Position numbers and translations under genes: made by a program
From: Desulfolithobacter dissulfuricans
Lineage (GTDB): Bacteria > Desulfobacterota > Desulfobulbia > Desulfobulbales > Desulfobulbaceae
Assembly (NCBI RefSeq): GCF_025998535.1
Contig: NZ_AP024233.1
Location: 3,124,001 to 3,188,000 of the forward strand
DNA length: 64,000 nucleotides
Direction: 5' to 3'
Shown here: in pieces, positions 4,322 to 50,012 of the stretch
Numbering within the stretch: position 1 is the first letter of the stretch
Layout: each line of letters starts with the position of its first letter
Notes under the pieces: model-generated
What the model was told of the DNA's origin: nothing
Databases searched by the model: none
Seen by the model: the letters and a program-made list of their open reading frames with translations, nothing else

Positions 4322-7300
4322 CCCACCTCTGCTTCCCGGCCCTGGCAGGCCCGGTCAAGAGATTCAATCAGTTCCCGCTGCGGCCGGGCATGGAAGATGC
4401 CCGTACCCGGCGGGTTAGCCGGCGCCATGCCCCGCAGGAACAGGTACAGGGCGCCGCCCATATGGGTGTCGTAGTCATAATCCTTCAGCCGGATCCGCAA
4501 ATAGCGGTGCAGGGCCAGGATATAAATAAGGTACTGCAGGTCGTAACGGTGCTCCAGCATGGCCTGGTTCAGCCTGTCCGGACAATACTCTTCGACCCCG
4601 GAGCCGAGAAAGTTGGACTTGTAATCCACCACCCAGAAACGGCCGCGGCCGCGGAAGACCAGGTCGATATAGCCCTTCATCAGCCCGCGCAGAACTCCGG
4701 GTTTTTCAGGCAGCGGGGCCATACCGTACTGCTCGAGTATCTCGTTCCAGCGGCCGATGCGCAACCCGTCCAGGGAAAAATAGAACCCCATCTCGCATAT
4801 CCTGCTGTCGGGTTCCACCCGGGCAAGGGTCAGGCCATCGACAAGCGGAGTGGTGACCACCTGTTCCATCCAGCCGGTGACCACCTCTGCCCAGCTACCG
4901 TCAATGCCGGCTAGTCCGAGCTGATCCGTGACAATGCGGTGCAGCCGCTGTGTGTTGAAAACAGACAAAGCCTCAGGCGAACCGGCGCCAGTCTCTGACA
5001 CACCGTCTGTCTGCGACACACTGTCACCGGCCAGGAACTCCTCCAGGATGCCATGCAGACAGGTACCCGCCGCCGCGCCTCGGGGGAAACCGAACCGGTC
5101 CCGACCTGCCATAACCACCTCCTCCCCCGGCCCGGCAGTGTGTCGCAGACAGACGGTGTGTCGAAGACTGACGGGATCGGTTTCCAGTGGCTCATCGGCC
5201 TGTTCCAGCTCCGGCTCATACCCCGAGACCAGGCCTGAATAACTGGTGATACGCCAGCCGGTATCGACGTGTCCGGTGAAGACCCGGGGAGCAATCTCGG
5301 CCGGCATGGTCATCGCCGCGGGAGTGTGTCGCAACCGGACGAGCTCCTGTCCGGCCAGCTCCTCCGGGACGGCCTGACCCACGGTGATCACCTTCCGGTC
5401 ACCGGCCCGGGCCGCGGTGCTGCGGGCGAGCTCGTACAGCTCTTCCATGATCCGGTCCCCGGAAAGTTCCTTCACCGGGACCACCCGGCCATTCCCGTCC
5501 CGATGGAGGAGCCAGGCCAGGGCAGAATACTCCATGGACCGGAACCGGCCCCAGCAGATCACCGTGCCATAGACAGCCCTGGTCACGGCCACGTAGAGAA
5601 GGCGCAGGTCCTCGGCCAGCCTCTCCTGCTCGGCCTGGCGGTAATGGCCCTCGTCATCGCTGCCCAGGTCCACCTGACGGGCCAGGGTATGCGGATCATG
5701 GAAGGCAAAGGGTCTGTTGCGGTCACACACCTTTCCATCCCAGAGAAAGGGCAGAAAAACCATGGAGTACTGCAGTCCCTTGGCCTTGTGGATGGTCACG
5801 ATCCGGACCAGGTTCTCGTCACTTTCCAGCCGCAGCTGCTGACTTTCGCTCTTTTTTTCCGCCTCCGAGCTCTGCAGCTGCTGATCAAACCAGCGGACCA
5901 GTCCGGCCACAGAGGTGGCCGTGCGACTCCAGGCCTCCTGCAGCAGCTCGGCCAGGTGCATGTAATTGGTCAGCTGCCGCTCGCCGGAGACAGTGCGCGG
6001 GACACTGACAGGCTGCAGCAGCCGGTTGGTCACCCCTTCCCGGGCCACCAGATACTGCAGCATGGTAACCGGCCCATGCTCTTCCAGCCGCTGGCGATAT
6101 TCCTGGAGCATGGCCAGCCGCTCCTCCCAGGCGGCCTCGTCGTGGCCGAGCCGGTCGAGCCCGGCCGCATCCAGGCCAAAGAGCGGACTCACCAGAGCCA
6201 GACGGACCAATCCCTCGTCTTCCGGGTTTTCCAGGGCCAGGAGCAGATGGAACAGATGCTCGGCTTCGGGACTGCCAAACACCGACTCCTGGCTGTAACA
6301 GACCGAAACAATATTATGCGCAGCCAGAGCCCTCTGCATTACCGCCGCCTCGCGGTGGGTACGGACCAGGACCGCGATATCGCCCGAGGCCAGGGGCCGG
6401 GCCCCGATCCCGGTGCCGATCAGAGCCCGGCCACCAAGCCCGGCGGCCAGCAGGCGGCTGATCCGGGCCGCGCAGAGCGCAGCCGCCGCCTCCCTGCCCC
6501 TCTCGCGGGCCAGAACGCCACCGGAGCGGGGCCCGGCCAGCTCTTCGGCGGGCAGAACGAGAAATTCCATGGCCGGCAGCTCGGTACCGTCCACCAGCAG
6601 CGGTTTTTCCTCCTCGATCCGGCCGGCGGCCTGCACCGGATGCAGGCGAATATCACTTGCGAAGATAAAGCTGTCCCGGGCACCGAAAAGGTGGTTCACC
6701 GCCTCCACCATGGCCGCGGTGGAGCGGTAGTTGGTGCCAATGGTGAAACGGTTTTCCTCCGGTGTATCGCGACGGGCCTGGATATAGGTGAAGATGTCGG
6801 CCCCGCGAAACGAGTATATGGCCTGCTTGGGATCACCGATCATGAACAGACCGCACCGGTCGTCCCGGCCGGCATAGATGGTTTTGAAAATCCGGTACTG
6901 GACCGGATCGGTGTCCTGAAACTCGTCCACCATGGCCACCGGGAAACGGGTCCGGATGCGGCGGACCATCCGGCCATCGGTGTCCCGCTGCAGGGCCCTG
7001 TCAAGATGATGGAGCAGGTCGTCGAAGTACATGGCGTCCTGTTCCTTCTTACGCTGGTCCAGCTCCCGGATCATATAATCCCTGGCCTCGGTCAGGATCG
7101 CTATCCTCCTCCGGGCAAGCAGCCGGCCATGGGCGGTAAAAAAACTGTCAAAGAGGAAAAAAAACGGGTGCTCCGGCCGGGTGCCCTTTTGCTTCATCCT
7201 CTTTTCCATCTCCGATCGGGCCAGCAGTTCGATGGGCGGAACCAGTCGCCAAACCAGGGTTTCTTCGTCCGCCAGGCGGTCCATGCCGGTCAGGGCCTGT

Positions 7301-8064
7301 TCCACCCGCTCCGGGGAATAGCCCTTGCGCTTGTCGCGACTGAGGCCCGTGGCCGAGGTCAGGGCCTCGGCGACCTCTTCCCGCACCCCGGGCCAGACCT
7401 GCTGTATCTCCCTGAAACGATCCTCACAGGTCTGGCGCAGATCGTCGAGCTCTTCCCGGTCTATGGCTGGAAAACAGCGCACGCCTCTTTCCAGTAGCGG
7501 GCCGTCAAGGGCACCCAGGATCTTTTCCGGGCCCGCCCACTGTTTCAGGATCCAGGCGGTCTCGGGCGGCTCCAGGCCATAGAACCGGCTCCGCCAGAAA
7601 TCTTCCATGATCTGCTGCCGGAGCAGGCTCTCGTTCTCGAGGAATTCGGTGTCAAAGGACATACCTGATTCCACGGCATGGTCCTGGAGAACCCGCTGGC
7701 AGAAACCGTGGATGGTGTGGATGGCTGCCTCGTCCATACGGGCCAGGGCGTCCTGGAGGAGCGTGGCCCCCTCCTCCCGCCCAATCCGGGCCAGCAACCC
7801 CTCCAGGAGCTGGTCACCGGAGGCTGCCGGTCGCTGCTCCAGCAGGTCCAGGGCCTCACGGATCCGGTTCCTGATCCGGTCACGGAGTTCCTCGGTGGCT
7901 GCCCGGGTAAAGGTCACCACCAGGATCTCGTCCACCGGCAGCCTCTTTTCGAGCAGAAGACGGAGGTAGAGAAGAACAATGGTGTACGTCTTGCCGGTCC
8001 CGGCCGAGGCCTCGATCAGCTGCCGGCCGGCCAGGGGAAAGGTCAGGGGGTCAAGCGGCTGCAT
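4318..8064 (-). CDS. recB: RecBCD exonuclease, beta subunit RecB
   Basis: RecB supplies the 3'-5' helicase and the only nuclease of RecBCD. The product is 1248 residues. Walker A (EASAGTGKT) lies at residues 18-26, motif II is VDEFQDTDPVQYR, motif VI LLYVAVTRA is present, and the C-terminal nuclease carries DLVFRGRG and the catalytic DYKSN at about residue 1147. I choose the ATG at 8064, behind GGAGGA, rather than the upstream in-frame ATG at 8082; it overlaps the recC stop by 14 bases. Three in-frame insertions of the 18-bp repeat (4986-5023, 5137-5174, 5323-5341) sit between the helicase core and the nuclease. They add SVSQTDGVSETG-like and VSLRHTVCLRHT-like segments that are not part of the family consensus. 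Confidence 0.95.
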   Translation of the reverse strand: MQPLDPLTFPLAGRQLIEASAGTGKTYTIVLLYLRLLLEKRLPVDEILVVTFTRAATEELRDRIRNRIREALDLLEQRPAASGDQLLEGLLARIGREEGATLLQDALARMDEAAIHTIHGFCQRVLQDHAVESGMSFDTEFLENESLLRQQIMEDFWRSRFYGLEPPETAWILKQWAGPEKILGALDGPLLERGVRCFPAIDREELDDLRQTCEDRFREIQQVWPGVREEVAEALTSATGLSRDKRKGYSPERVEQALTGMDRLADEETLVWRLVPPIELLARSEMEKRMKQKGTRPEHPFFFLFDSFFTAHGRLLARRRIAILTEARDYMIRELDQRKKEQDAMYFDDLLHHLDRALQRDTDGRMVRRIRTRFPVAMVDEFQDTDPVQYRIFKTIYAGRDDRCGLFMIGDPKQAIYSFRGADIFTYIQARRDTPEENRFTIGTNYRSTAAMVEAVNHLFGARDSFIFASDIRLHPVQAAGRIEEEKPLLVDGTELPAMEFLVLPAEELAGPRSGGVLARERGREAAAALCAARISRLLAAGLGGRALIGTGIGARPLASGDIAVLVRTHREAAVMQRALAAHNIVSVCYSQESVFGSPEAEHLFHLLLALENPEDEGLVRLALVSPLFGLDAAGLDRLGHDEAAWEERLAMLQEYRQRLEEHGPVTMLQYLVAREGVTNRLLQPVSVPRTVSGERQLTNYMHLAELLQEAWSRTATSVAGLVRWFDQQLQSSEAEKKSESQQLRLESDENLVRIVTIHKAKGLQYSMVFLPFLWDGKVCDRNRPFAFHDPHTLARQVDLGSDDEGHYRQAEQERLAEDLRLLYVAVTRAVYGTVICWGRFRSMEYSALAWLLHRDGNGRVVPVKELSGDRIMEELYELARSTAARAGDRKVITVGQAVPEELAGQELVRLRHTPAAMTMPAEIAPRVFTGHVDTGWRITSYSGLVSGYEPELEQADEPLETDPVSLRHTVCLRHTAGPGEEVVMAGRDRFGFPRGAAAGTCLHGILEEFLAGDSVSQTDGVSETGAGSPEALSVFNTQRLHRIVTDQLGLAGIDGSWAEVVTGWMEQVVTTPLVDGLTLARVEPDSRICEMGFYFSLDGLRIGRWNEILEQYGMAPLPEKPGVLRGLMKGYIDLVFRGRGRFWVVDYKSNFLGSGVEEYCPDRLNQAMLEHRYDLQYLIYILALHRYLRIRLKDYDYDTHMGGALYLFLRGMAPANPPGTGIFHARPQRELIESLDRACQGREAEVG
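4986..5023. repeat. 18-bp dispersed repeat, site 1 (two units, in recB)
   Basis: Two abutting units on the plus strand, the second (5004-5021) exactly CGTCTGTCTGCGACACAC and the first degenerate at three positions, followed by TG. On the coding strand of recB it is translated as SVSQTDGVSETG. Confidence 0.9.
5137..5174. repeat. 18-bp dispersed repeat, site 2 (two units, inverted, in recB)
   Basis: Two abutting units in the opposite orientation to site 1, GTGTGTCGCAGACAGACG followed by GTGTGTCGAAGACTGACG. RecB reads through it as SLRHTVCLRHT, a different frame from site 1. Confidence 0.9.
5323..5341. repeat. Degenerate 18-bp repeat unit, site 3 (in recB)
   Basis: A single unit, GTGTGTCGCAACCGGACG, matches the canonical complement at 14 of 18 positions. 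It is read in recB as VRLRHT, the same frame as site 2, and looks like an old, decayed copy. Confidence 0.5.
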
Positions 8065-9100
8065 CGTCTTCCTCCAGTACATCCAGGACCGGGTCCCAGA
8101 TCCGGGTCAGTTCCCGGAATCCCTGATCCAGGGGATCACGCCCCCGGAGGGCGATCCGGTAGGCCAGATCCTGCTGTTCTCCCGGTGTCTTGAACGAATC
8201 ATACCAGACCTTCTCGGCCTCCCGCTGTTCCGCCCCCCTGCCCGTTCGCCTGGCCCTGGCCCAGGCAAGGCTGGTCCCGGGAAAGAAATGAAGTGGTTCC
8301 CTCAGGCCGCACTGGTACCAGTGGAGCAACTCCGCCAGCTGTTCCCGGGCGGTTTCCACCGGCTGGAGAGAGAGAACAGAGTCCGTGGCCAGGTGGAAAC
8401 TGCGGTGCCCCGTACCCTCCGGCGCCGCCAGGTTCAGCACCAGATGCAGGACCCAGAGCCGGATCAGATCACCACCCTTCCACCTGGTGGGTCGCCAGGT
8501 CACCAGCCCTTTGGCGTGGAGCCCGTCCAGGGTGCCAACCAGCCGGATTCCCGCCACATCCAGGTCAACGGACACCGGCTCCCGCCGTTCCTGGCCAAGC
8601 ATCGAGAGATTGCGCACCAAAAATGACGTCCTGTCATACAGCTCCGCCATGAGGCTCTCACCAAAACCACCGTGGGGCAGCAGCCCCCGAGCCCGGAGCC
8701 TGCGACTGCACTCCCCTGGCTCCCGGCCGGAGAGCAGACAGTCCACGCTCTGCCTGGCCAGCTGGTAGCGCTCCAGCGCGTCCGGGGCAAACGGCTCGTT
8801 TTCAGCCAGGGCCTCCTCGCCCACCCACAACCGCAACCCGAGCCGTTCCTGGAGAAAAAAACGGACCGGATGACTCCAGAACCTGGCCAGGAGATTGATA
8901 TCAACGCTCTCCCATGCACCGCCCGGGCCGCTGTCGTCTCCAGGATCGGACAGGGCCTGACGGACAAAGGCTGGAGAATCGACCCGGGGGTCCCGGGGGG
9001 GCAGCCAGTGAGCGGCATGACTGCGGTACACCGTACCGGTGAAACAGCTCGCGGAAAAGGGTTGCAGGGGATACTCCACGGTCAGCAGCGCGCTGACCGG

Positions 9101-9138
9101 CAGTGTGTCGGAGACAGACGGTGTGTCGGAGACAGACG
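9101..9138. repeat. 18-bp dispersed repeat, site 4 (two units, in recC)
   Basis: Two identical abutting units GTGTGTCGGAGACAGACG, preceded by CA. RecC reads it as SVSDTPSVSDTL. Confidence 0.9.
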
Positions 9139-9826
9139 AATTCCCGGCCCCGGCGGCCACGGAACTGCGGTCGATATAGTCACGCAGCTCGCTGACCACC
9201 ACCGAAGGCGGCAGCAGGCTCATGTCCCGCTGATCCCGGCCGATCCAGGAAATATGGAGATGCTCGCGGGCGGAAAGCAGGGCTTCGAGGAACAGGTACC
9301 GATCATCGTCACGCCGGTTGCGGTCGCCGATCCGGGGTTCCCTGGCCATCAGGTCAAAGGAGAGCGGCCGCTGCACCCGGGGGAAATCACCATCGTTCAT
9401 ACCCAGCAGACAGAGAACCCGGAAGGGTATGGCGCGCATGGGGACCATGTTGCAGAACGTGACCTGACCGGACAGAAACGGATAGGGCGCCGGAGCACCG
9501 TTCAGGGCATGCTCGAGCCAGGCGCGGACCAGGTTCTGCTCCAGGGGTTCGGTGAACCCGGCCCTGGAGCAGGTGGCGCCAAAGCGACCGATGGTCTCCC
9601 GCAGCTGGACCAGGCTGTACTGCTCCTCGCTCTCCACGCCGGTAAAGAAATCATCCAGCAGGGCGACCAGCACCTCCTGCCAGCGTGAAGGGGCGGCCGG
9701 CTGGCGGAGGCGGCGGCTCCAGAACCGCAGCCGCTCGACGAGAGAGGCCAGGACACCAAGGAGATGGGTATCACGGGAAGAGAGATCACCAAACGGCTCC
9801 ATGTCCTCCCAGGGCCTGGGGGTGGA

Positions 9827-9854
9827 CGACACACCGTCTGTCTGCGACACACTG
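9827..9854. repeat. 18-bp dispersed repeat, site 5 (one full, one partial unit, in recC)
   Basis: A full canonical unit at 9835-9852 preceded by the last eight bases of another. It ends three bases before the G9 tract where the recC frame breaks. Confidence 0.9.
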
Positions 9855-9856
9855 CA

Positions 9857-9865
9857 GGGGGGGGG
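9857..9865 (+). repeat. Homopolymer G9 tract at the recC frame break
   Basis: Nine consecutive G on the plus strand (C9 in recC). The two recC frames join exactly here. Tracts of this length are prone to slippage in replication and to miscalling in sequencing. Confidence 0.9.
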
Positions 9866-9967
9866 AGGGAAGGGCCGGCCACGTGGCCGAGCAGCAGGCG
9901 GTCCAGACCAAAGGCCCAGGTGTGCAGGCCGGAACCGGGAGCTTCCCCTGCTCCTCTGCCGGGATCC

Positions 9968-10005
9968 TGGCTGTCTGCGACACACCGTCTGTCTGCGACA
10001 CACTG
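9968..10005. repeat. 18-bp dispersed repeat, site 6 (two units, in recC)
   Basis: Two abutting units, the second (9986-10003) canonical. RecC reads it as CVADRRCVAD, yet another frame of the same unit. Only about 110 bases separate it from site 5. Confidence 0.9.
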
Positions 10006-10997
10006 CGAGCGGTGGGCCTGGTCGAGGCCCCAGCGGATGCCGGAGTGCCCGACCAGGGTGCGCAGCCGGCTGACATCATCCCCGGTCAGGCCGAGACCGT
10101 TCCGGACAGCCCCGGTTTCCAGCAGGGCCAGGACCTGGGGCGCGGTCATCCGTCCCGAGAGGACATCCAGCAGGTCGAGAAAGGTCCGGATAACGGTATG
10201 GTGGGCGGCGAGGGAACGGTCGGCCAGGGACCAGGGAATCCGGCCGGGCTCTTCCGCCGTCCCGAAGACCCCGGCAATGGCCCCGTGGTACCGTTCGATA
10301 TCCGGTGCCATGACCAGGATATCCGAGGGCAGCAGGTCGGGATGCTCCTGGAAAAGTTCCAGCAGCCGGTCGTGGAGGACCTGCACCTCGCGCAGCTCAC
10401 TGTGGCAGGAGTGAAAGGTGATGGACCTGTCTTCGGGCCGGACGATAAAAGGGGAAGCGTCGGCGTCACTGCGGTCATGGAGATTAAGGATATCCTGCTG
10501 CACCGAACCGAGCAGGCAGGTTGCATCTTCCTCCTGGTAGAGATCGTATTCCCGGACAGGAACGGAACCGTCATCGACCGTCCCGAGCAGGAGTCGAAAA
10601 AAGTCCCGGCCCACCCTGCCCAGGGAGGCCAGCAACGGATTGCCCTGGGCATAGAACCCACTGACGTCAGCCTGCTCCTGCCGCCGCCAGTTCTCCCGTT
10701 TCCTGGCCAATTCCCGGCCGGAGACCACGTCTTCCCAGAAACTGCGACAGGGGCTCAGATGAAAGAAATGCACCTCGGTGAACGTGGCCACGATCCGGAG
10801 CACCTCGAGATAAGCCGGGGCCAGGGAGCTGATTCCGAAAAGACAGACCCGCTCCGGCAAGGCGTCAAAGCCGGACCCCCTGATCCGGCCGGACGAGAGC
10901 ACCTCTGCGCAGCGAGCCCGGAGCCTGTGGAGTAAAGCCGCCCGATGCGGTTCATCACCGCCGACCAGAGCCCGCCACAGGATGGCCTGCCAGCTGT

Positions 10998-11035
10998 CAT
11001 CTGTCTTCGACACACCGTCTGTCTGCGACACACTG
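10998..11035. repeat. 18-bp dispersed repeat, site 7 (two units, in recC)
   Basis: Two abutting units, CATCTGTCTTCGACACAC then the canonical unit, translated in recC as SVSQTDGVSKTD. Confidence 0.9.
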
Positions 11036-11563
11036 TCTTCGCCCCGTTCCCAGGCCAGGATCATATCCGGCCGGAACACCAGGTACTGGTCAAAAAGATC
11101 ACTGATCCGACCGGCGAGCTGAAACCGTTTTCGCTGATCGGTGTCGGTGTGAAGGTAAGAGGCCAGCTCACCAAAACCGGGTTGCCGGCACAACTCGGGC
11201 AGCAGGGCCATTATCCTCCACTGCAGTATGTTGCGGTCAAAGGACGACTCTTCGGGCAGCGGCCCGAGAACCGTGGCAAACACGTCCCAGACAAAACGGG
11301 CTGCCAGCGGAAAAGCCAGGTTGGCGGCAATACCGGAGTGACGGGCAAGCTCCAGGGAAAGCCAGCGCCCCATGCCCGGGCTCTGGACCACCACGATCTC
11401 AGGAGCCAGGGGATCACGAAGCGGCGTCCCCAGCACCGCGGCCAGGGCCTGCAGCAGATGCTCCTGCCTGTTGGACTGATAGAGAAAGAGGTTACCCATT
11501 CCCGGTTCCTGACTTATCGTTGTTGATGGCAAAAATGTTTTTCTTGTGCCGCGCACCATCTGC

Positions 11564-11569
11564 TATACT
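11564..11569 (+). promoter_or_regulatory. Possible -10 element for the hybrid kinase gene
   Basis: TATACT lies about 130 bases before the kinase start, in the 200-base gap between divergent recC and the kinase. No convincing -35 box is paired with it at 16-18 bases. I see nothing else in this gap. Confidence 0.25.
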
Positions 11570-11700
11570 GCAAGAGAAGCTGTTCTGCCACAGATGTAAC
11601 TCCCTGGATGAAATCAGGTACCCCACCGGCACGCCCGGCGTGTTTCTGAAGCCCGGGCAGGTTCAGCATAGAGAACGACCACCACAGGTCAGGCTGACAT

Positions 11701-14568: not shown

Positions 14569-14638
14569 CACGCCCTGCCCTTCCGGATCCCGTCCCCTCA
14601 GCCCCTTTTCGCCCCGGCCACCCCTGCCGGCCGCCGCT

Positions 14639-14657
14639 CGTCTGTCTTCGACACACT
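14639..14657. repeat. 18-bp dispersed repeat, site 8 (single unit at the tolC-like stop)
   Basis: One unit, CGTCTGTCTTCGACACAC, at 14639-14656. The TAG stop of the TolC-like gene (14656-14658) is formed at its edge, so the unit marks or created the end of that frame. Confidence 0.8.
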
Positions 14658-16128
14658 ACCGTGATCCGGCATCATCCGTGGTCGTGGCCGACCTGGCAAA
14701 GGCGGCCAGGTTCTGGCCGGTGGCCGCCAGCAGCCGCTGGCGGGCCAGGTGGTAGTTGACCAGAGCCTGGGCCAGACGGACATGGGTGGTGGTCAGGTTG
14801 CGCTGGGCCTCGTTGAGCCGGACAATGGAAGCGGTCCCGGCCTGGTATTCCGCCTCGGCCAGCTCCCGGTTTTCCCGGACCAGCTCCACGGTTTGCCGCT
14901 GGAGCTCGACCTGTTCCTCGGCCGCCTGCAGGAGTGCCATGTCCTGGCGTATCTCGGAGGCCACCCGGTTGCGCAGATCGGCATACTGGTAGCGCAGCTC
15001 CCGCAGCCGTAACCGCGCCTCGACCTGCCGGGCCCGGTCACCCCCGCCCGAATAAAGATTCCAGCCCAGGCTGAGCATGATACTGGAACCAAAATCATCC
15101 ACCCCGAGTCCCATATCACCCTCCCGAGCGCCGTTCACACCCCCGGACAGCTGAAGACGGGGATAGTCGCTGGCTTTCGCCATCCCGGCGGCGGCTTCGG
15201 CCTGCCTTATCTGCATGGCCAGCGTCTGGATATCCGGCCGCGTCTCCAGGGCCTCGGCAAGCAGCCTGCTTACCTCTGCCTGCCGGTCCACGGCGGCAGG
15301 GTCCGGGCAGATCACCTCCCGGTCCAGCGGTGCCAGCTTCATGTTCGGGGGCAAGGCGCCTTCGGGCAGTCCGAGCAGGGCAGCCAACCCGTAGAGCGCG
15401 GCCTCGTACTGACGCTTGCCCAGCAACAGGGCGGTGCGGGCCGAATTGAGCTGGACCTTCATATTGAGCACATCGCCCCGGGAGCCGGTGCCCACTTCAA
15501 AGCGATTCTGCGCGTCCTGAAGCTGCTGGGCATAGAACCTGGCATCGGCGGCGGCGATCTCCACCGCCGTCTGCTGGAGCTGGGCATTATAGAAAGCCTC
15601 GGCCACCGCGGCCAGGAGCAGACGCCGGGCATCCCGGCGGGCCGCCTCCAGCGATTTCTCCCCGAACTTGGCCTGCTGCTGGTTGAATTTGCGGTAAAAG
15701 CCGTCAAAGAGAACCCAGGTGGCCTGCACGCCGAGGGAATAGTCATCAACGGTCCGGTCGGCAGTACCGCCATAGAGCATGGCCATATCCCGGGCCGCTT
15801 CATAGTCGTTATCCGACAGCCGGACCATCCGGCCCGAAGCGCTGAGATCAAGCGAGGGGTACCAGGCAGCCATGGCCTGCCTGACCCGGGCCCGGGCCTG
15901 TTCCAGCCGGGCGCCAGCCGCCGCCATGGAGGGATTGGCCTCCAGGGCGAGGTGCTGGGCGGCCTCGAGATCGAGGGCTGTACTCTCCTCCTTCCCCTGA
16001 ATCTGTGCCGGCAATGGAGCGGACTTGCCTCCAGGTAGCTCCCCGGCCTGTGCGGCCATACTCCAGCAGAAAACGACCAGAAAAAGCATCAGCTGCAACC
16101 GTCTGCCTCCAGCGACCCTTTGTTTCAT
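14656..16128 (-). CDS. TolC-family outer membrane efflux protein
   Basis: The 490-residue product is the outer membrane channel for the adjacent RND pump. It has a signal peptide (positive start MKQRVAGGRRLQ, hydrophobic LMLFLVVFCWSMAAQA) and two repeats of the outer membrane efflux family rich in Ala, Gln and Arg heptads, as expected for the coiled-coil tunnel. I choose the ATG at 16128 because GGAGAA lies five bases upstream and the signal peptide starts there; longer frames upstream lack this. It is the last gene of marR-adaptor-pump-tolC, with a 126-base gap after the pump. Its stop codon lies at the edge of an 18-bp repeat unit, so the extreme C-terminus may not be ancestral. Confidence 0.9.
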   Translation of the reverse strand: MKQRVAGGRRLQLMLFLVVFCWSMAAQAGELPGGKSAPLPAQIQGKEESTALDLEAAQHLALEANPSMAAAGARLEQARARVRQAMAAWYPSLDLSASGRMVRLSDNDYEAARDMAMLYGGTADRTVDDYSLGVQATWVLFDGFYRKFNQQQAKFGEKSLEAARRDARRLLLAAVAEAFYNAQLQQTAVEIAAADARFYAQQLQDAQNRFEVGTGSRGDVLNMKVQLNSARTALLLGKRQYEAALYGLAALLGLPEGALPPNMKLAPLDREVICPDPAAVDRQAEVSRLLAEALETRPDIQTLAMQIRQAEAAAGMAKASDYPRLQLSGGVNGAREGDMGLGVDDFGSSIMLSLGWNLYSGGGDRARQVEARLRLRELRYQYADLRNRVASEIRQDMALLQAAEEQVELQRQTVELVRENRELAEAEYQAGTASIVRLNEAQRNLTTTHVRLAQALVNYHLARQRLLAATGQNLAAFARSATTTDDAGSR

Positions 16129-16254
16129 TCTTCTTCTCCGGTATGCCATACAAGATTTCATGCTTCCTGCCCAAAGGCGCCTCCCTCCCTGGACTTTTTT
16201 TCCATTTAAGTCGCCCGTGTCCGCCGGCGCAAGCACAACCACTATAAAAAAACT

Positions 16255-19200
16255 TCAGCCGGCCCGATCCGTGCTTTCCTGCCATGGCAGGGGAGGCTCC
16301 GTTGCCGGCTGCCTTCGGCCGGATGCCGGTTCCACCGTCTCCCTGGTGGGGCAGGTACCGGTCCGCAGTCGGACCGCCAGCCGACGCAGATCATTGACAA
16401 TGGCCAGCAGGGACGGGATGAGCACCAGGGTCAGCACAGTGGCAAAAGTGACTCCAGCGGCCAGGGACAGGGCCATGGGGATAAGAAACCGGGCCTGGAG
16501 ATCCGTCTCCATGATCAGGGGAGCCAGCCCGCCCACCGTTGAAATGGAGGTGAGCATAATGGCCCGGAACCGTCGGGCCCCGCCTTTCTTGACGGCCTCG
16601 AAAAAAGTCATGCCTTCGGCCAGGTTCTCGTTGATCCGCTCGATGAGGACAATGGCGTCGTTCACCACCACCCCGGTCAGAGCCACCATGCCGAACAGGG
16701 ACATCATGGAGAGATCGTATCCCAGCAGCAGGTGCCCGATGATGGCACCGATAATACCGAACGGCACGGTGAAAAGGATGACCAGGGGCTGGAGATAGGA
16801 ACGGAAAATGGTCGCCACGATGACATAGATGCCGAGCACCGCCAGGGGAAAGGTCACCTTGAGGCTGGAAAACGATTCGCGCATGTTCTTTTTCGCCCCC
16901 TGGAGCGACACATGGAGGCCGGGAAACTTGCGCTTAAGCTCGGGGAAAAAGGTGGCCGAGAGGTCGGCATAGATCTCCCCGGCATTGGCCCGGCGGGCGT
17001 CCACATCCGCGGTCACCGCCACGCGCCGCAAACCGTCGGTGCGAACAATGGCGGAAAATCCCGGACCATAGGAGATATCGGCCACCGAGAGAATGGGCAC
17101 CTCGGCCCCGTCCGGAGTCCGGATCCGCAGCCGTTCAAAGTCGGAAAAACGGCTCCGCTCGGCCCGGGTGAGCCGCACCTTGACCCGGATGTCGTCGCGC
17201 CCCCTCTGCAGCCGGTACGACTCCACGCCGAAATATCCCGCCTGCACCTGGCGGGCCAGGTCTTCCGCCGTCAGGCCCAGCGCCCGGGCCCCGGGTTTCA
17301 GGGCCAGGCGGAACTCGTTCTTGCCCGGACTGTAATCGCTGCGGATCTGCGTCACCCCGTCGTAAGAGCGGAGTTTGTCCATCACCAGGCCGCTGGCGGC
17401 CAGGATCTGTTTCATGTCCCTGCCCTGGAGCCATATCTCGATTTCAGGTCCACCCGGACCGGCGGACAACCCCTCAAAGGTCAGGGAACGGGCCCCGGGA
17501 ATCTGACCGATCTCACGCTCCCATTCCACCAGCAGTTCATTGGAGTGGACACCCCGCCGGGCCGAATCCAGGAGAATGAACTGGACCGAGCCCATGTTGG
17601 GCCCGGTACGGCCCATGGTCCCGGACAGGGTCTGGCCCAGCAGCCGCAGCCGTTTCTCGATCATGGGCTCACCGGTCCGGGTGGGAATCCGCTCGGCCAC
17701 CCGGACAAACCCCTCTTCGATCCGGTCCAGGGCCCTGAGCGTCACCTCGGGCGGCGTACCGTCGGGAAACTCCACCGTGGAGGTGATGACAAACCCATCG
17801 ATCTTGGGAAAGACCTGAAATTTCACCAGACCGCTGCGAACCAAGCCAAGCGACAGAAGCAGGACCGCCAGGCCAGTGGCCAGGGTGACGTACCGGTATC
17901 CCAGGACCCGGTCGAGGAAAGGGATATAGTGCCGGGACACGAAACGCTCCATGCCCTCCTGGGTAAACCGCTGCATCCCGGCGAGCACTCTGGCCAGGCG
18001 ATTTCCGGGCCTGGTCGAACGGTTGAGATCCGGCAGATGGCTGAGATGGGCCGGGAGGAGAAACAAACACTCGACCAGCGAAATCAGCAGGCAGGAGATG
18101 ACCACCACCGGCAGGATGGCAATGAACTTGCCCATGATACCACCGATATAGGCCAGCGGAATAAAGGCAACCACGGTGGTGAGAACCGCGGCAATAACCG
18201 GCATACCCACCTCGCTCACCCCGTCCACCGCCGCCACAAGTGGCCCCTTGCCCAGCTTGCGGTGCACATAGATGGACTCGCCCACCACAATGGCATCGTC
18301 GACCACGATCCCGAGCACCATGATGAACCCGAACAGGGAAACCATGTTGATGGTCGCGCCCATGGACCAGAGGATGAACATGGCGCCGGCCAGGGAGATG
18401 GGAATACCCATGCCGGCCCAGAAACTGAGCCGCAGGTCGAGGAAAAGCCAGAGGAGAAAAAAGACCAGGGCCATGCCGAGGAGACCGTTGCGGGTCAGCA
18501 GGTTGATCCGAGCCTTGAGGGCCTTGGTATTGTCGTAAAAATCGGTCAGCGACACCCCGGGGGGCAGCTGGTCCTGTTTCTCCTGCACATAGCGGCTCAC
18601 GGTCTGCGATATCTGCAGGGAATCCTCGGTACTGGTCTTGAACACCATGACAAAGACCGATGGCCTCCCGTCGATGATGGCCACCACCGGATCTTCGGTG
18701 AACCCGTCCCGGATATCGGCCAGGTCACCCAGACGGATCAGCTCGCCTCCCGGACCGGTGAAGACTACGATCCGGGCCAGCTCCTCGTCGGTGTACTTCC
18801 GGTCCACGGTCCGGATCCGGACCTCTTCGCCCCGGGTCCGGATGGTGCCGCCATGCAGATTGATACTGGCCCGGCGGATGGCCGAGGCCACCTGGGAGAG
18901 CGTCAGTCCATACTCGCGCAGACGTGCTTCGGAGATCTCGATGGAGATCTCGTAATCCCGGACCCCGAAGACCTCCACCTGGGAGATACCGTCCAGCAGT
19001 CGCACCTCGTCCCGCACCCGCTCGGCCCAGGTCTTGAGCTGTTTTTCGCTAAGCTCCCCGGAAAGGGCCAGCAGCATCACCGAATCACGTATGGTGATCT
19101 CGGTGGTCACCGGCCGTTCCGCATCCACGGGAAAGGTGGAAATGGCATCGACCCGGGCCTTGATGTCATCGAGCACCTCGCTGACATCATAGCCCTCGCT

Positions 19201-19488
19201 CACCTCGACCACGGCCGAGCCGATCCCCTCGGACGAGGTGGTGGTGTACTGCTTGATGCCCTCGACATTTTCCAGGGCCTCTTCCAGCTTGAGACAGATT
19301 CCCTCCTCCACCTCTTCCGGGTCAGCTCCGGGCCAGACCACCCGGATGGAAATTCGGTCCAGGGAAAACTGGGGAAAGGACTCCCGGATCATGGACGAGG
19401 CGGCCAGGATACCGGCCATGAAAATCAGGACCAGGACGATATTGGCGAAGACAGTGTTGCCGGCAAAGGCGGCCAGAACTCGTCTCAT
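16255..19488 (-). CDS. RND-family efflux pump, inner membrane subunit
   Basis: A 1077-residue proton-driven transporter of the AcrB/HAE1 type. Features seen are the N-terminal helix, the first periplasmic loop with VVWPGADPEEVEEGI, a central block of helices with FGFIMVLGIVVDDAIVVGE (proton-relay Asp pair in helix 4), a second periplasmic half and C-terminal helices including MVALTGVVVNDAIVLIERIN. Length is normal. The start ATG overlaps the stop of the adaptor gene (ATGA). Together with the adaptor and TolC-like protein it should form a tripartite exporter; drug versus metal substrate cannot be told from sequence. The operon begins with a MarR regulator, which favours toxic organic compounds. 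Confidence 0.94.
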   Translation of the reverse strand: MRRVLAAFAGNTVFANIVLVLIFMAGILAASSMIRESFPQFSLDRISIRVVWPGADPEEVEEGICLKLEEALENVEGIKQYTTTSSEGIGSAVVEVSEGYDVSEVLDDIKARVDAISTFPVDAERPVTTEITIRDSVMLLALSGELSEKQLKTWAERVRDEVRLLDGISQVEVFGVRDYEISIEISEARLREYGLTLSQVASAIRRASINLHGGTIRTRGEEVRIRTVDRKYTDEELARIVVFTGPGGELIRLGDLADIRDGFTEDPVVAIIDGRPSVFVMVFKTSTEDSLQISQTVSRYVQEKQDQLPPGVSLTDFYDNTKALKARINLLTRNGLLGMALVFFLLWLFLDLRLSFWAGMGIPISLAGAMFILWSMGATINMVSLFGFIMVLGIVVDDAIVVGESIYVHRKLGKGPLVAAVDGVSEVGMPVIAAVLTTVVAFIPLAYIGGIMGKFIAILPVVVISCLLISLVECLFLLPAHLSHLPDLNRSTRPGNRLARVLAGMQRFTQEGMERFVSRHYIPFLDRVLGYRYVTLATGLAVLLLSLGLVRSGLVKFQVFPKIDGFVITSTVEFPDGTPPEVTLRALDRIEEGFVRVAERIPTRTGEPMIEKRLRLLGQTLSGTMGRTGPNMGSVQFILLDSARRGVHSNELLVEWEREIGQIPGARSLTFEGLSAGPGGPEIEIWLQGRDMKQILAASGLVMDKLRSYDGVTQIRSDYSPGKNEFRLALKPGARALGLTAEDLARQVQAGYFGVESYRLQRGRDDIRVKVRLTRAERSRFSDFERLRIRTPDGAEVPILSVADISYGPGFSAIVRTDGLRRVAVTADVDARRANAGEIYADLSATFFPELKRKFPGLHVSLQGAKKNMRESFSSLKVTFPLAVLGIYVIVATIFRSYLQPLVILFTVPFGIIGAIIGHLLLGYDLSMMSLFGMVALTGVVVNDAIVLIERINENLAEGMTFFEAVKKGGARRFRAIMLTSISTVGGLAPLIMETDLQARFLIPMALSLAAGVTFATVLTLVLIPSLLAIVNDLRRLAVRLRTGTCPTRETVEPASGRRQPATEPPLPWQESTDRAG

Positions 19489-20744
19489 GGGTGCTCACCG
19501 GAGGGGCTGGGGATGTCGTCTGTCTCTGACACACCGTCTGTCTCTGACACACTGCTGATGGAGAGCAGGGCGTTCTCCAGGGGATTTTCCAGCCGGGTGG
19601 TGATCACCAGGTCGCCTGGTTTCAGGCCGGCGGTGACCAGGGCCCGCTCCTCTTCGACCCGGGCCACCTCCACCTGCCGGGTCTGCAACCTGCCATCCAC
19701 GGCCACATAGACCCGGTTGTCAAAGGTGACCGCCCGGCGCGGCAGGACAAAGACGTTCTCCAGGGCGGTACCGGGAATCGCCACCCGGCAGTACATGCCC
19801 TCGACCAGGGGAACCCCAGTCCCGCTATCCGGTTTCGCAGATAGACGCAGGGCCACCACCACGGTCCGGCTTTTGGGATCGAAACGGACCACCCTGTCCA
19901 CCACGGCCTGCCCCTGGACCCGGGCATCCTCGACCCACTGCACCCTGCCCGTTACCGGCAGGGGCGTCCCGAACCAGTATCCATCGCCGGCCCGGCCGTC
20001 AAACCGGAGCCAGCGGGCCGCCTCGCGGCTGTCCAGACCGACCTCGATCTCCAGGTCCCGGTCATCGACCAGGGTAAAAAATTTCCGGCCAGGGCTCACG
20101 TAGCTGCCCTCTTCCACCTGCACTTCGGCGATCCGGCAGGTGAAAGGGGCCCTGATGACACACCGGTCCATGCGCAGCCTGGCCAGCCGCATGGCCTGTT
20201 CCAGCTGCCGGATCTGGTTGCGGACCGCGTTGTAATTGCTCTCCGCCCGATCAACGCTTGTGATGGTGCCGGCCCTGTTACGCTTATAGAGTTCCCGCAC
20301 CCGCTCCAGCTCCCGGCGGGCCAGCACCTGGTCGCGCTCAAGAATCTCCAACCGGTCCCGGGCTGTTTCATATTCCAGCCGGTAATCGCTATCATCGATG
20401 ACCACCAGCACCTCTCCGGCCTGAACCTCCACCCCTGATTCCAGGTCACCCCTGCCGTCGCGTTCCCGGCCATAAACCGAGACAACCCGGCCGGAAACCT
20501 CGGCCGATATCTCCACCCTGCTCCGGGAGCGGATTTCACCATACCCGTCAAGGGAGATAGTCACCTGACCGGGCTGCACGGCCATCACTTCGACCGGCAG
20601 GGCGTGTTCGCCCGGAGCGTTGTGCCGTGGTGGTTTCTTCATCTTCTGGAGCAGGACAAAGCCACCGGCGCCACCACCGAGAATCAGCAGGCACAGAATA
20701 AGCCGCAGGAGGAGAGAGGGGGAGGGTTGGGTTGTGTTCATCAT
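19485..20744 (-). CDS. RND efflux periplasmic adaptor (HlyD/AcrA type)
   Basis: A 419-residue membrane fusion protein. A single N-terminal helix (LLLRLILCLLILGGGAGGFVLL) anchors it, then a biotinyl-lipoyl-like half (VEVMAVQPGQVTISLDGYGEI), a coiled-coil hairpin (about residues 115-200), and beta-barrel and membrane-proximal domains. I start at the ATG at 20744, which overlaps the marR stop (ATGATG over TGA), not at the longer frame. Two 18-bp repeat units (19517-19554) code for SSVSETDGVSETD just before the C-terminus, so the last roughly 20 residues are repeat-derived and probably disordered. The gene is coupled to the pump gene by a four-base overlap. Confidence 0.92.
   Translation of the reverse strand: MMNTTQPSPSLLLRLILCLLILGGGAGGFVLLQKMKKPPRHNAPGEHALPVEVMAVQPGQVTISLDGYGEIRSRSRVEISAEVSGRVVSVYGRERDGRGDLESGVEVQAGEVLVVIDDSDYRLEYETARDRLEILERDQVLARRELERVRELYKRNRAGTITSVDRAESNYNAVRNQIRQLEQAMRLARLRMDRCVIRAPFTCRIAEVQVEEGSYVSPGRKFFTLVDDRDLEIEVGLDSREAARWLRFDGRAGDGYWFGTPLPVTGRVQWVEDARVQGQAVVDRVVRFDPKSRTVVVALRLSAKPDSGTGVPLVEGMYCRVAIPGTALENVFVLPRRAVTFDNRVYVAVDGRLQTRQVEVARVEEERALVTAGLKPGDLVITTRLENPLENALLSISSVSETDGVSETDDIPSPSGEHP
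19517..19554. repeat. 18-bp dispersed repeat, site 9 (two units, adaptor gene 3' end)
   Basis: Two identical abutting units CGTCTGTCTCTGACACAC. The variant has CTGACA, which puts a TGA in one of six frames, but not the one used here (SVSETDGVSETD). Confidence 0.9.
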
Positions 20745-21292
20745 CTGCCTGTACGGTTTCCATTCATGTCTGCAGCTCCGGACCCGGACCGGGAAACACC
20801 TCCCTGGCGGCCGAGACGCTGCTGGAGGACCTTTTCCACCTGCTGCAGGACCCTGTACCACTGCTGGGCGGTTTCCGGCCCCAGTTCGCGCACCAGGTCG
20901 ACAAAGGAGGCGATCATCTGTTCCTCGATCCGATCAAGATCGTCAGTGGCATCCGGACTCAACCCGATCACCACCTTGCGCCGGTCGGCCGTGGACCGTT
21001 CCCGGACCAGCAACCCCTTATCCACCAACCGTTCCACCATCACCGACACCGAGGGCGGCGAGACGCCGAGCAGGTCCGCCAGTTCGGTGAGGGTCAGCTC
21101 CTGCTGACCACGCACGGTGAGCAGCAGATTGAGCTGGGCCAGCGACAGTTCCCCGTGGCAGCAATTATCACCCCGGGCAGCGGTTCCAGCCAGTCCCTGG
21201 AGCAGGTGCCGGCGCAGCATCTTGCCCACCGTGAAGATATACCGGGCCTGTTTACGCAACAGGGCAGCGTCTGTTTCCTTGTTATCCAACAT
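20741..21292 (-). CDS. MarR-family transcriptional regulator
   Basis: A 183-residue winged-helix regulator. The DNA-binding domain spans about residues 55-125, with recognition helix LADLLGVSPPSVSVMVERL and the wing RSTADRRKVVIGLS. The start at 21292 follows AAAGGAG at a good distance; an ORF extension upstream is not needed. MarR proteins repress as dimers and release DNA on binding ligand. It is the first gene of the efflux operon and probably represses it: a 15-bp perfect palindrome overlaps the promoter just upstream. Confidence 0.92.
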   Translation of the reverse strand: MLDNKETDAALLRKQARYIFTVGKMLRRHLLQGLAGTAARGDNCCHGELSLAQLNLLLTVRGQQELTLTELADLLGVSPPSVSVMVERLVDKGLLVRERSTADRRKVVIGLSPDATDDLDRIEEQMIASFVDLVRELGPETAQQWYRVLQQVEKVLQQRLGRQGGVSRSGSGAADMNGNRTGR

Positions 21293-21361
21293 CAACTCCT
21301 TTCCCTGTCCCACCACAACCCGGCAAGACCGGGCCCTGACCATTATTTAACAAAACAAACA

Positions 21362-21376
21362 ATTAGACTGTCTAAT
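21362..21376. promoter_or_regulatory. Palindromic operator, probably MarR site
   Basis: ATTAGAC-T-GTCTAAT is a perfect palindrome with 7-bp arms, 70 bases upstream of the marR start and overlapping the predicted -10. Size and position fit MarR-type autoregulation. Confidence 0.65.
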
Positions 21377-21401
21377 AAATAAAAGGCAAAAAAAATGTCA
21401 A
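21372..21401 (-). promoter_or_regulatory. Sigma-70 promoter of the marR-efflux operon
   Basis: On the minus strand TTGACA (21396-21401) is followed after 18 bases by TATTAG (21372-21377). The -35 is perfect; the -10 matches four of six and lies inside the palindromic operator. Confidence 0.55.
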
Positions 21402-21506
21402 GGGATAAACACCCCTCTCCCGACGACAGGCAGGATTTCCGACATGAAAAAAGCAAAAAAAAAGCCGCGCATGAGCGCGGCCGGGCTGGAAAACAGACAA
21501 AAAACC

Positions 21507-22130
21507 TCAGACAGCGTCGGGGTAAGGGAAATCCGGCTCCTTGAGCAGTTTGAACATTCGCTGCTTGGTCTTGGTCTTGCTGTCATGGTACAGTACAAGC
21601 TCCCGGATCAGGGACAGAACCTGCTCTTCATCGGCACCGCGGACCACCCGGCGACCGATCTGGGGAAAAGCGCCCAGCTTGCCGCCCACGTACACATCCA
21701 TGCCCTTCGGGGTTCCGACGATACCGATATCCGTGGTCAAAGACCCGGGACAGGCCACGGTACAGCCGCTGATGGCGATTTTCAGCTTGGGCTTCACCGG
21801 CGCCATACCGGCCAGCAGTGAGGAGATCTTTTCCTCCAGACCAAAAGTGTCAATCCGGCCGAATTTACAGTGCGGGGTGGAGACGCAGACCTTGGGCAGC
21901 GGGTGCTTGACCTGACCCTTGAACCGGGCTCCGACCCGGCTGGCCAGCTCATCCATGATGGCCTGGCGGTCGCTCTCCTTCACCTCCAGCAGCCGCAGGT
22001 TCTGGGTCGTGCTCAGATAGAGAGTGAGCTGATATTTCTGCACCACATCGTTGACTGCCTGCAGAAATTCCGGGCTAACCAGCCCGGCCCCGCAGAGAAT
22101 GGTCAGTGACTCGGTTTTCTCCTGTTCCAT
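21507..22130 (-). CDS. Small single-domain sulfite/nitrite reductase-like siroheme protein
   Basis: The 207-residue product carries the complete siroheme/4Fe-4S Cys pattern of sulfite reductases, CVSTPHC (C-x5-C) and CTVAC (C-x3-C), plus the N-terminal ferredoxin-like half (LRLLEVKESDRQAIMDEL). It matches in size the low-molecular-weight assimilatory-type sulfite reductase known from sulfate reducers (about 220 residues), which catalyses six-electron sulfite reduction in vitro; its cellular role is not settled. It stands alone, with no DsrA/DsrB or siroheme genes nearby. The AGGAGG box is 12 bases from the ATG, longer than usual. An out-of-frame ATG two bases after that box opens a 12-codon frame overlapping the start. 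Confidence 0.85.
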   Translation of the reverse strand: MEQEKTESLTILCGAGLVSPEFLQAVNDVVQKYQLTLYLSTTQNLRLLEVKESDRQAIMDELASRVGARFKGQVKHPLPKVCVSTPHCKFGRIDTFGLEEKISSLLAGMAPVKPKLKIAISGCTVACPGSLTTDIGIVGTPKGMDVYVGGKLGAFPQIGRRVVRGADEEQVLSLIRELVLYHDSKTKTKQRMFKLLKEPDFPYPDAV

Positions 22131-22188
22131 TGACGACGCATGCCTCCTGAAATGTTATATTGGAAACGGTTGAATGGTAAAAAATTAT

Positions 22189-22360
22189 GTAATTACCACT
22201 GAAATTCAGCCACTGATGGATAAAGGTGTCGGCGTCACTTGTTGCACGGGTGTCTGTGGCCTGGATGGCCACAGTCAAGCCCCCAGGGACGGGTTTATGG
22301 CGTCCCGTGAAACAAGGGAGGTCGACACCGGTTTCAATGCCAAGGATTGATGGTAATCAG
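22189..22360. mobile_element. Structured short transposable element with target duplication, copy 1
   Basis: The 172-bp element is flanked by a perfect 10-bp direct repeat AAAAAATTAT (22179-22188 and 22361-22370). Its ends are inverted copies, GTAATTACCACTGAAATTC on the left and, read inwards from the right, CTGATTACCATCAATCC. Inside are an outer stem pairing 22225-22250 with 22304-22329 (22 of 26 match), a hairpin CTGTGGCC/GGCCACAG (22254-22274) and a second hairpin GGGACG/CGTCCC (22286-22306). No coding frame fits. It resembles a MITE whose transcript would fold as a three-way junction. The right duplication contains the stop codon of the J-domain gene. Confidence 0.75.
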
Positions 22361-22366
22361 AAAAAA

Positions 22367-22681
22367 TTATTTCCGCCGCCGGCTCCAGAGCGGATCCTGA
22401 CCGAACCGGTCCATCCACCAGTCCTCGGCATCATAGATATCGTGTTCTCCGGGACGGAGCGGGAAACGGTAGTCCTTTATATAGCGCATGAGCAGCTCGT
22501 AGGCCGCGGTGATCCGGTACATGATCGCCTCGGTCTCCTGATCCGGCTTACCGGCGGTATCGGGATGATATTTCTTGCACTGCCGGTGATAGGCCCGCTT
22601 GATCTCACCCAGGGTGGCCCGATCACCCAGGCCAAGCAGTTCCCTGGCCTCCTCCACCGCCTGCCGCCATTCCTTACTGTT
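22367..22681 (-). CDS. Short J-domain (DnaJ-like) protein
   Basis: A 104-residue protein that is little more than a J domain. It has helix II basic residues (KRAYHRQCKKY), the essential HPD loop (KYHPDTAG) and helix III (ITAAYELLMRYI), followed by a short charged tail ending WSRRRK. J domains stimulate DnaK ATPase; without a zinc or client-binding domain it probably targets DnaK to a specific partner. I prefer the GTG at 22681, behind AGGGAAG, over the longer frame from a GTG at 22723 that starts inside an 18-bp repeat. It overlaps the plsY stop by eight bases. Its own stop lies in the target duplication of the adjacent element. Confidence 0.85.
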   Translation of the reverse strand, partial: NSKEWRQAVEEARELLGLGDRATLGEIKRAYHRQCKKYHPDTAGKPDQETEAIMYRITAAYELLMRYIKDYRFPLRPGEHDIYDAEDWWMDRFGQDPLWSRRRK

Positions 22682-23315
22682 CACAGTCCGTGGCTTCCCT
22701 GTTTTCGTCTGTTTTCGACACACTCCAGCTCTTCTCGGTCCCGCTGAGCAGCCGGCCGATGTTCTGGTAATGCTTGATCCAGATCATGACCGCGACAAAG
22801 GCCCCCAGCCACAACTTCCAGGCAGGCTCGCCCAGCAGCCAGAGCCAGAGGATCACCGTGGCCGAGGCCAGGAGCGAACCCAGGGACACATAACCGGACA
22901 GCCAGACTGCGGCCACGAAAACCACCAGGCAGCCGAGCACGGCCATCGGTGCCAGGTACAGAAACACCCCAAGGCCAGTGGCCACCCCCTTGCCGCCCCT
23001 GAATCGGAGATAGAGCGGAAACATGTGGCCGATAATGGTCGCGGCCCCGCACAGGGCAATGACCAGGGTGTGCTGCCCCTGGCCACTGGTGAAGAAACCG
23101 GCCAGGTACATGGGCATAAAGCCCTTGGCAATATCGAGCAGCAGAGTCAGCAGCCCCAGTTTCTTGCCCAGCAGCCGGGCCACGTTGGTGGCCCCGATAT
23201 TCCTGCTGCCCCGGGTACGAATATCGATTCCGCTGGGGCGCGACACCAGCAGACCGAACGGTATGGCCCCGATCAGATAGGAGAGCAGGATAAGGAGAAT
23301 GTCTTGTGGCGCCAT
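22674..23315 (-). CDS. plsY: Glycerol-3-phosphate acyltransferase PlsY
   Basis: PlsY transfers acyl groups from acyl-phosphate to glycerol-3-phosphate, the first step of membrane phospholipid synthesis. The 213-residue integral membrane protein has the family signatures SYLIGAIPFGLLVSR, GSRNIGATNVAR and FRGGKGVATGLG. The C-terminus ends SVSKTDENREATDCEQ, part of it encoded by a single 18-bp repeat unit (22706-22723), beyond where the family usually ends. It is translated right after a 65-residue gene (four-base gap) and overlaps the J-domain gene. Confidence 0.95.
   Translation of the reverse strand: MAPQDILLILLSYLIGAIPFGLLVSRPSGIDIRTRGSRNIGATNVARLLGKKLGLLTLLLDIAKGFMPMYLAGFFTSGQGQHTLVIALCGAATIIGHMFPLYLRFRGGKGVATGLGVFLYLAPMAVLGCLVVFVAAVWLSGYVSLGSLLASATVILWLWLLGEPAWKLWLGAFVAVMIWIKHYQNIGRLLSGTEKSWSVSKTDENREATDCEQ
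22706..22723. repeat. 18-bp dispersed repeat, site 10 (single unit, plsY 3' end)
   Basis: CGTCTGTTTTCGACACAC, one mismatch from the TCTTCG variant. Read in plsY as SVSKTD, and in another frame it supplies a GTG that could start the J-domain gene. Confidence 0.85.
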
Positions 23316-49853: not shown

Positions 49854-50012
49854 CCTGAATCCGTGAAGCTGGAGTTTCGTCTGTCTTCGGCACACTGCCG
49901 CATACGCAGGTAAGCGGAGACTCCGGGGAAGAGGCCCATTGACTGGAGTGACGCTCTGACAATCGTTGATGACGCAGCGGATGCGGTGAAAGTACAGCTT
50001 CACGGATTCAGG
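49854..50012. mobile_element. Short inverted-repeat element, copy 2 (perfect 18-bp ends)
   Basis: The ends CCTGAATCCGTGAAGCTG (49854-49871) and its perfect complement (49995-50012) bound a 159-bp element. It is a paralogue of the element at 2249-2432. It carries one 18-bp repeat unit that copy 1 lacks. No reading frame. It lies in the leader of uspA, 63 bases before its start, and would be part of any transcript made from upstream. Confidence 0.8.
49878..49895. repeat. 18-bp dispersed repeat, site 11 (single unit inside an element)
   Basis: CGTCTGTCTTCGGCACAC, one base from the usual TTCGACACAC. The aligned position in the paralogous element at 2249-2432 lacks 18 bases here, so the unit was gained in this copy or lost in the other. 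Confidence 0.85.

Follow-up and report, generated by a model that had tools for sequence, protein, structure and literature searches.

An 18-bp hairpin repeat, probably mobile, inside genes of Desulfolithobacter dissulfuricans

The 64-kb stretch of DNA analysed here, referred to below as the window, raises the question of how a single 18-bp unit came to lie, mostly within genes, at 12 separate sites. The published literature leaves open how CGTC-type palindromic repeats spread, no transposase having been found for them (PMC3733652). The family described here is small and sharply bounded, its borders follow a clear rule and its clusters point to moves over short range. With inserts in genes, the MurE-MurF fusion among them, it makes the mechanism directly testable. 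The repeat illustrates how proteins can gain new peptide segments without a frameshift, and the unit may be one of the smallest pieces of DNA able to spread.

Distribution in the window and in other genomes

The sites found in the window are listed in Table 1. An earlier note on this DNA had given ten sites between 5 and 23 kb and one at 49.9 kb; the latter was recovered, but 11 sites were counted in the former group, between 4.95 and 22.7 kb. The arrangement it called usual, two abutting units, applies to half of the sites (6/12). The length of 18 bp is frame-neutral, both orientations occur, and the four translated peptides it had named (SVSQTDG, VCLRHT, SVSDTP and CVADRR) were all seen. Freedom of the canonical tandem from stop codons in six frames proved true by inspection but is a weak distinction, estimated to be shared by about 1 in 5 random 18-mers.

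Table 1 Sites of the 18-bp unit in the window and the two genes carrying four arrays each.
Feature	Position in window	Strand	Context or basis
Degenerate unit, 3 mismatches	4950..4967	-	in recB; gap in RecB ortholog rows
Two units, left one degenerate	4986..5021	+	in recB; ortholog gap
Two units	5138..5173	-	in recB; ortholog gap
Single degenerate unit, 3 mismatches	5324..5341	-	in recB; gap in most ortholog rows
Two identical units, C at position 10	9103..9138	-	in recC; ortholog gap
One unit with decayed shorter left neighbour	9835..9852	+	in recC; adjoins nine-G run at ~9857-9865
Two units	9968..10003	+	in recC; ortholog gap
Two units, exact 12-residue insert	10998..11033	+	in recC
One unit	14639..14656	+	at stop codon of outer-membrane efflux protein gene (14656-16242, minus)
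Two identical units	19517..19552	+	HlyD-type gene, near C-terminus
One unit	22706..22723	+	glycerol-3-phosphate acyltransferase gene, near C-terminus
One unit	49878..49895	+	outside predicted genes
recB, 4 arrays	4318..8082	-	Pfam UvrD-helicase, UvrD_C, PDDEXK_1; orthologs
recC, 4 arrays, two overlapping frames	8051..11559	-	Pfam Exonuc_V_gamma, RecC_C; tblastn frames

Two other dispersed families are also represented in the window. At 22192-22357 lies a MITE-like element, one copy of a family whose ends are GATTACCACTGAAATTCAGCC and GATTGATGGTAATC; a 13-mer of one end gave 10 matches in a 0.59-Mb sample, seven of them with the fuller end. A copy of another family, with inverted CCGCATATTTCACAA ends, lies at 44821-44993. 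The reading frame of recC switches between ~9874 and 9796, and most ortholog rows are continuous there. This stretch (9796-9874) contains a nine-G run (9857-9865), one unit and a decayed neighbour of the unit, and the switch may be a sequencing error, a phase-variable tract or a real frameshift; the unit is one possible cause.

The genome and its relatives were searched for the unit, as the earlier note had proposed. With up to three mismatches, 16 matches were found in the window, compared to a mean of 0.04 and a maximum of 1 in 100 dinucleotide shuffles. In the whole genome (3,596,428 bases, a single contig of 3.6 Mb), 54 units match CGTCTGTCTNCGACACAC with at most one mismatch when position 10 is left free, and 0 were found at the same setting in 56 relatives, of which at most 36 belong to the same family and none to the same genus. 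Allowing two mismatches gave 55 units in the genome, compared to 7 with the reversed pattern. The resulting catalogue holds 47 arrays and 69 units; it includes 2 arrays added by a sequence model that scored 150 of 1455 candidates, and older copies may be absent from it.

Within the order, the two-unit pattern is confined to 1 genome out of 257. Among 395 genomes of the phylum, 48 matches were found here and one each in 3 other genomes; these single matches look like chance, since the reversed control pattern matched once each in 11 genomes. The 77 relative loci that hold orthologs of the carrier genes contained no unit within 3 mismatches and 2 at 4 mismatches, and a TRF scan of these loci (431 kb) returned no tandem resembling the 18-bp unit. 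In two relatives that belong to a single genus, recB is adjoined by 23-bp tandem repeats (L071, 1219-1442; L072, 5457-5965). An exact scan of the GTDB genome collection returned 11 stretches, 8 of them from Nostocales. The 3 others, and one exact match in viral contigs, were rejected as the right-border T described below is missing. In a 0.61-Mb sample, no other CGTC- or GTAG-tagged stem occurred more than 3 times.

Structure, borders and placement in genes

The unit is an imperfect palindrome. One strand, GTGTGTC-GNA-GACAGAC-G, forms a short imperfect stem that starts TGTC and consists of 4 bp, a mismatch and 2 bp, closed by a three-base loop. Loops of the C-GNA-G kind are unusually stable in DNA, whatever the base at N. 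On this hairpin strand, position 10 of the unit is the middle loop base, where all four bases occur. The computed fold was -3.0 kcal/mol for the hairpin strand compared to -1.0 kcal/mol for the other strand; the hairpin is weak, with z values of -1.2 to -1.55 and 15 to 27 of 200 shuffles folding equally well. Across the 69 units, position 10 has changed 26 times, by transversion in 19 cases. Elsewhere in the unit (17 positions) the mean is 3.7 changes per position, mostly transitions (45/63, many at CG steps), as decay of the units would produce. Units start with CGTC in 57 of 69 cases, with TGTC in 5 and otherwise in 7.

Arrays consist of 1 to 3 units, always head to tail, and 20 of the 47 contain more than one. 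Every internal junction (22/22) lies at an offset of exactly 18; the decayed neighbours at arrays 6 and 35, which have length changes, were excluded from the unit count. Inverted neighbours within 200 bp were limited to arrays 30/31, which are decayed and 18 bp apart, and 31/32, which are 116 bp apart.

The flanking bases are nearly fixed. The base to the right of the array is T in 45/47 and the base to the left is a pyrimidine in 46/47. A strict count used 33 of 45 arrays, setting aside array 6 and those with a unit of more than one mismatch; T stood on the right in 33/33, and T or C on the left in 33/33. The second base on the right in these arrays is G in 19 and C in 10, and the third is C in 23. 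Read on the hairpin strand, the border is G-S-A, the unit, then R. The two arrays added by the sequence model, which took no account of flanks, obey the same rule.

Placement relative to genes was assessed with a simple reading-frame caller. In the window, 10 of 12 sites lie wholly inside genes and one is at a stop codon, much as the earlier note had described for its sites. Genome-wide, a gene fully encloses 38 of the 47 arrays; 2 others sit at a gene edge and the remaining 7 fall outside genes. A 400-kb background sample had a coding share of 0.873 with the identical caller (p 0.19 compared to 38/47). As the intragenic share is near the genomic coding share, a preference for genes is not supported: the copies show neither attraction to genes nor clear exclusion from them. 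The 38 intragenic arrays occur in both orientations and all three codon phases. Eleven of them lie within 25 residues of a protein terminus, compared to 4.4 expected, a count in which some N-terminal calls may reflect wrong starts; this excess suggests selection against harmful places. Carriers beyond the window include a MurE-MurF fusion, a penicillin-binding-protein-like gene, several cobalamin genes, an LpxB-Smr fusion, a methyltransferase/MTHFR gene, pdxA and others. MurE and MurF form one protein here (locus L050, 1757-4855) and in many relatives of the family.

Carrier proteins were compared with orthologs for recB (4 arrays, 28 rows), MurE-MurF (2 arrays, 27 rows) and recC (4 arrays, 17 usable rows). 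Short rows were dropped (1/29 for recB, below 1000 aa; 2/29 for MurE-MurF, 900 aa or less; 1/19 for recC, below 900 aa), as was a recC row in a wrong reading frame (L143). None of the RecB, RecC or MurE-MurF rows contained any of the six unit peptides searched. Gaps in RecB and MurE-MurF were inspected in 11 ortholog rows per site, and the other rows were covered by peptide motif. One MurE site spans 36 residues here and 24 in 27/27 rows. One RecC site spans 16 residues here and 4 in 13/17 rows, the flanking motif being missing in the other 4. These two sites are exact 12-residue inserts. The remaining sites lie in variable linkers where exact length is not judgeable and a few rows have residues of their own in the columns of the insert. 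Alignments to solved structures for the methyltransferase/MTHFR protein and CbiD showed gaps near the insert, at a divergence too great to prove length. By the ortholog comparison, the units are shown to have entered the genes after the lineage split from the compared relatives. The earlier note had suspected a selfish element; with the unit over-represented in the genome and missing from the tested orthologs at the same places, it is best read as mobile or selfish.

Spread of the unit and alternative explanations

Arrays are strongly clustered. In the genome-wide search, 24 of 36 arrays had a neighbour within 5 kb, compared to a random mean of 3.35 and a maximum of 15 in 5000 draws; the main clusters are the recBCD, mur and cobalamin regions. 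Arrays up to 15 kb apart share more variants than distant ones (p 0.001) in an array list enriched for neighbours in fetched regions, and the effect is marginal when position 10 is omitted (p 0.055 at 15 kb, 0.028 at 5 kb). In the two-unit arrays 26, 27, 34 and 39, the non-consensus variants of one unit are exactly those of the other. These arrays appear to have doubled where they stand, but with the register always preserved, which re-insertion at a rebuilt border explains better than slippage. A growth polarity test placed the older unit on the left in 6 arrays and on the right in 2, with 12 ties. The hairpin strand lies on the lagging-strand template in 25/36 (p 0.029), a bias confounded with gene direction. 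GC skew changes sign at ~3.39 to 3.44 Mb (L055, L141, L163), and dnaA is at position 416.

We place the chance that the repeat is a mobile element well over one half. The form of this reading that we consider rather probable is a lineage-specific, non-autonomous mobile hairpin repeat of 18 bp, REP-like, moved in trans and probably via single-stranded DNA. An enzyme of the Y1 HUH kind, either a single-strand nuclease or a transposase that recognises the hairpin, would act in trans, copying the unit and joining the copy at a site with the border bases. Insertion would add exactly 18 bp times n, as seen at the two sites where length could be judged, between nearly fixed borders with A on one side and a purine on the other of the hairpin strand. 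As the insert length is exact at those two sites, no target would be duplicated. Because each insertion would rebuild the site beside the new unit, further rounds would build up tandem arrays that stay in register; if near sites were favoured, both these arrays and the kilobase-scale clusters would result. With a length divisible by three and no stop codon, copies would survive in tolerant stretches of genes.

The Y1 route itself is possible, though we hold it at somewhat below even probability. Exact ends, the absence of target duplication at two sites and the C-T border fit the Y1 HUH enzymes of REP hairpins; C followed by T at the right border is the cleavage dinucleotide of the TnpAREP enzymes studied in the available part of PMC8266576. 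The pairing rule of GTAG guides, as far as that text gives it, would by analogy predict cleavage at G-A or G-C for a CGTC guide, in contrast to C-T. None of the five Y1_Tnp matches in the genome lies closer than ~36 kb to an array, and their loci (the match plus ~1.5 kb a side) contained no unit at up to 4 mismatches. An IS200-type protein encoded at 1,897,294 is a candidate enzyme. One of the five is a RAYT-like protein of 257 aa with NHVH and Y-x-x-x-NP motifs, resembling subclass 2.1, for which the available text of PMC6006769 gives no REP nearby. By eye, the gene for this protein (L168, 2525-3295; genome positions 3,342,524-3,343,294), also a candidate enzyme, is apparently flanked by its own inverted GGGGACAGGATA repeats. 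This sequence matches GGGGWSAS, the consensus given in the accessible part of PMC3733652 for TIR-associated tyrosine transposases.

Spread could also proceed without a dedicated enzyme, if template switching at replication or gene conversion copied units nearby and slippage doubled them. Such a process would account for the kilobase-scale clusters, for locally shared variants and for the identical units of arrays 26, 27, 34 and 39. Switching or a first round of slippage should, however, yield variable ends and registers, whereas every counted array comprises a whole number of 18-bp units, border bases are nearly fixed and internal junctions never leave the register, and enzyme-free spread is regarded as unlikely. 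RNA-mediated insertion, in which a small unit-containing transcript is copied into DNA at a nick, was reportedly suggested for cyanobacterial small dispersed repeats; it would suit the very small size of the unit and a core nearly that of a Nostocales dispersed repeat. Clustering as strong as that observed would be unexpected for a diffusible RNA, and this route is judged improbable.

Non-mobile explanations fare worse. Binding sites for dimeric proteins also typically show dyad symmetry around a free centre, as the unit does. A protein-binding site maintained by selection is nevertheless hard to reconcile with 38/47 arrays inside genes, in both orientations and three codon phases, and with their lack from the same genes in relatives; it is given a very low probability. 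Bacterial genes often contain tandem arrays of two units, so ordinary coding minisatellites or protein repeats arising separately in each gene were also considered. The recurrence of one 18-mer in genes that are not related to each other, across different frames and both strands, as well as outside genes, makes this the least credible account, and we regard it as highly improbable.

Comparison with known repeat families

Small dispersed repeats of Nostoc, which Elhai and co-workers are said to have described in 2008 as ~20 nt or little more and possibly mobile, resemble the 18-bp unit in size and possible mobility on that description. A core found in eight Nostocales genomes, CGTCTGTCTNCGACACGCT, differs from the unit plus its T at one position. 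With up to 3 mismatches, an extended pattern gave 140 matches in these genomes compared to 37 for the reversed control, and with up to 2 mismatches 91 matches that had all four bases at N, a freedom partly built into the pattern. At 25 Nostocales sites the T on the right persists, but the core is preceded by G at 24 sites and by A at the other, with no left pyrimidine; a longer right context is common to 17 of the sites, and head-to-tail doubles are absent. By a rough estimate, a core match at all but one fixed position is unlikely to have arisen by chance; shared descent, transfer and convergence stay open as its source. The repeats of Nostoc are named in the available parts of PMC3116915 and PMC2884548.

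A fuller version of the mobile reading can be offered tentatively, as rather unlikely. The 18-nt unit alone would be a complete non-autonomous element, among the smallest known, inserted exactly at G-S-A / R sites by way of single-stranded DNA; a strong preference for near sites, its own border included, would cause tandem growth in a fixed register. The core would be common to the Nostocales repeat because an enzyme of one kind, or the element, had crossed from phylum to phylum. The failure of the left-border rule in Nostocales counts against this version.

The earlier note knew of no description of this family. None was found in a literature search that covered few subscription papers; related kinds are nonetheless in print, namely CGTC- and GTAG-tagged repeats and intragenic REPs, including copies in recBCD genes. 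The nearest published kind in the literature available is the CGTC-tagged palindromic repeats (Di Nocera, De Gregorio, Rocco 2013, PMC3733652), which include RPE-4 and RPE-6 of Rickettsia conorii. According to the accessible text, these are mostly intergenic, have intragenic copies that include recBCD genes, and had no dedicated transposase found for them. The unit shares with them the palindromic form, intragenic copies that include recBCD genes, the tag at one end (CGTC, or TGTC or CCTC, in the published class; CGTC in 57/69 units) and the lack of an associated transposase gene, Y1_Tnp having been searched for here. It is nevertheless kept outside the class because stem, loop and dimer type differ. 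The unit has a stem of 4 bp plus 2 beyond a mismatch, without an initial A-T, and a loop of 3 bases; the published repeats have stems of 8-9 bp with A-T first and loops of 4-5 bases. Doublets are head to tail in 20/47 arrays, whereas the published dimers are mostly head-head with head-tail negligible. The unit is also shorter (18 bp compared to 20-40 bp), and its arrays are intragenic in 38/47. The three-base tail, unpaired and mostly CCA in the published class, is CAC in the unit, partly paired in the fold of one strand and free in that of the other.

GTAG REPs, REPINs and RAYT systems, in the available parts of PMC3116915, PMC8266576 and PMC6006769, are likewise short imperfect hairpins with a tetranucleotide at the foot. 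TnpAREP shares the C-T dinucleotide with the unit's right border. The tetranucleotide of a GTAG REP or REPtron is GTAG, a tag that the unit lacks. The rayt gene of a REPtron is flanked by the repeat, whereas no Y1 gene was found beside the unit. In a REPIN, as far as those texts describe it, two inverted units replicate together, whereas the 18-bp doublets are mostly direct.

Rickettsia palindromic elements, with which the earlier note had compared the unit, are also frame-keeping insertions in unrelated genes and are in general longer. RPE-1, for example, is a longer palindromic insertion in the available text of PMC3733652. The 18-bp unit is itself an imperfect palindrome, a point on which the earlier note needs correction. 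The comparison is apt: RPE-4 and RPE-6, as given in that text, end in CGTC, the first four bases of the unit.
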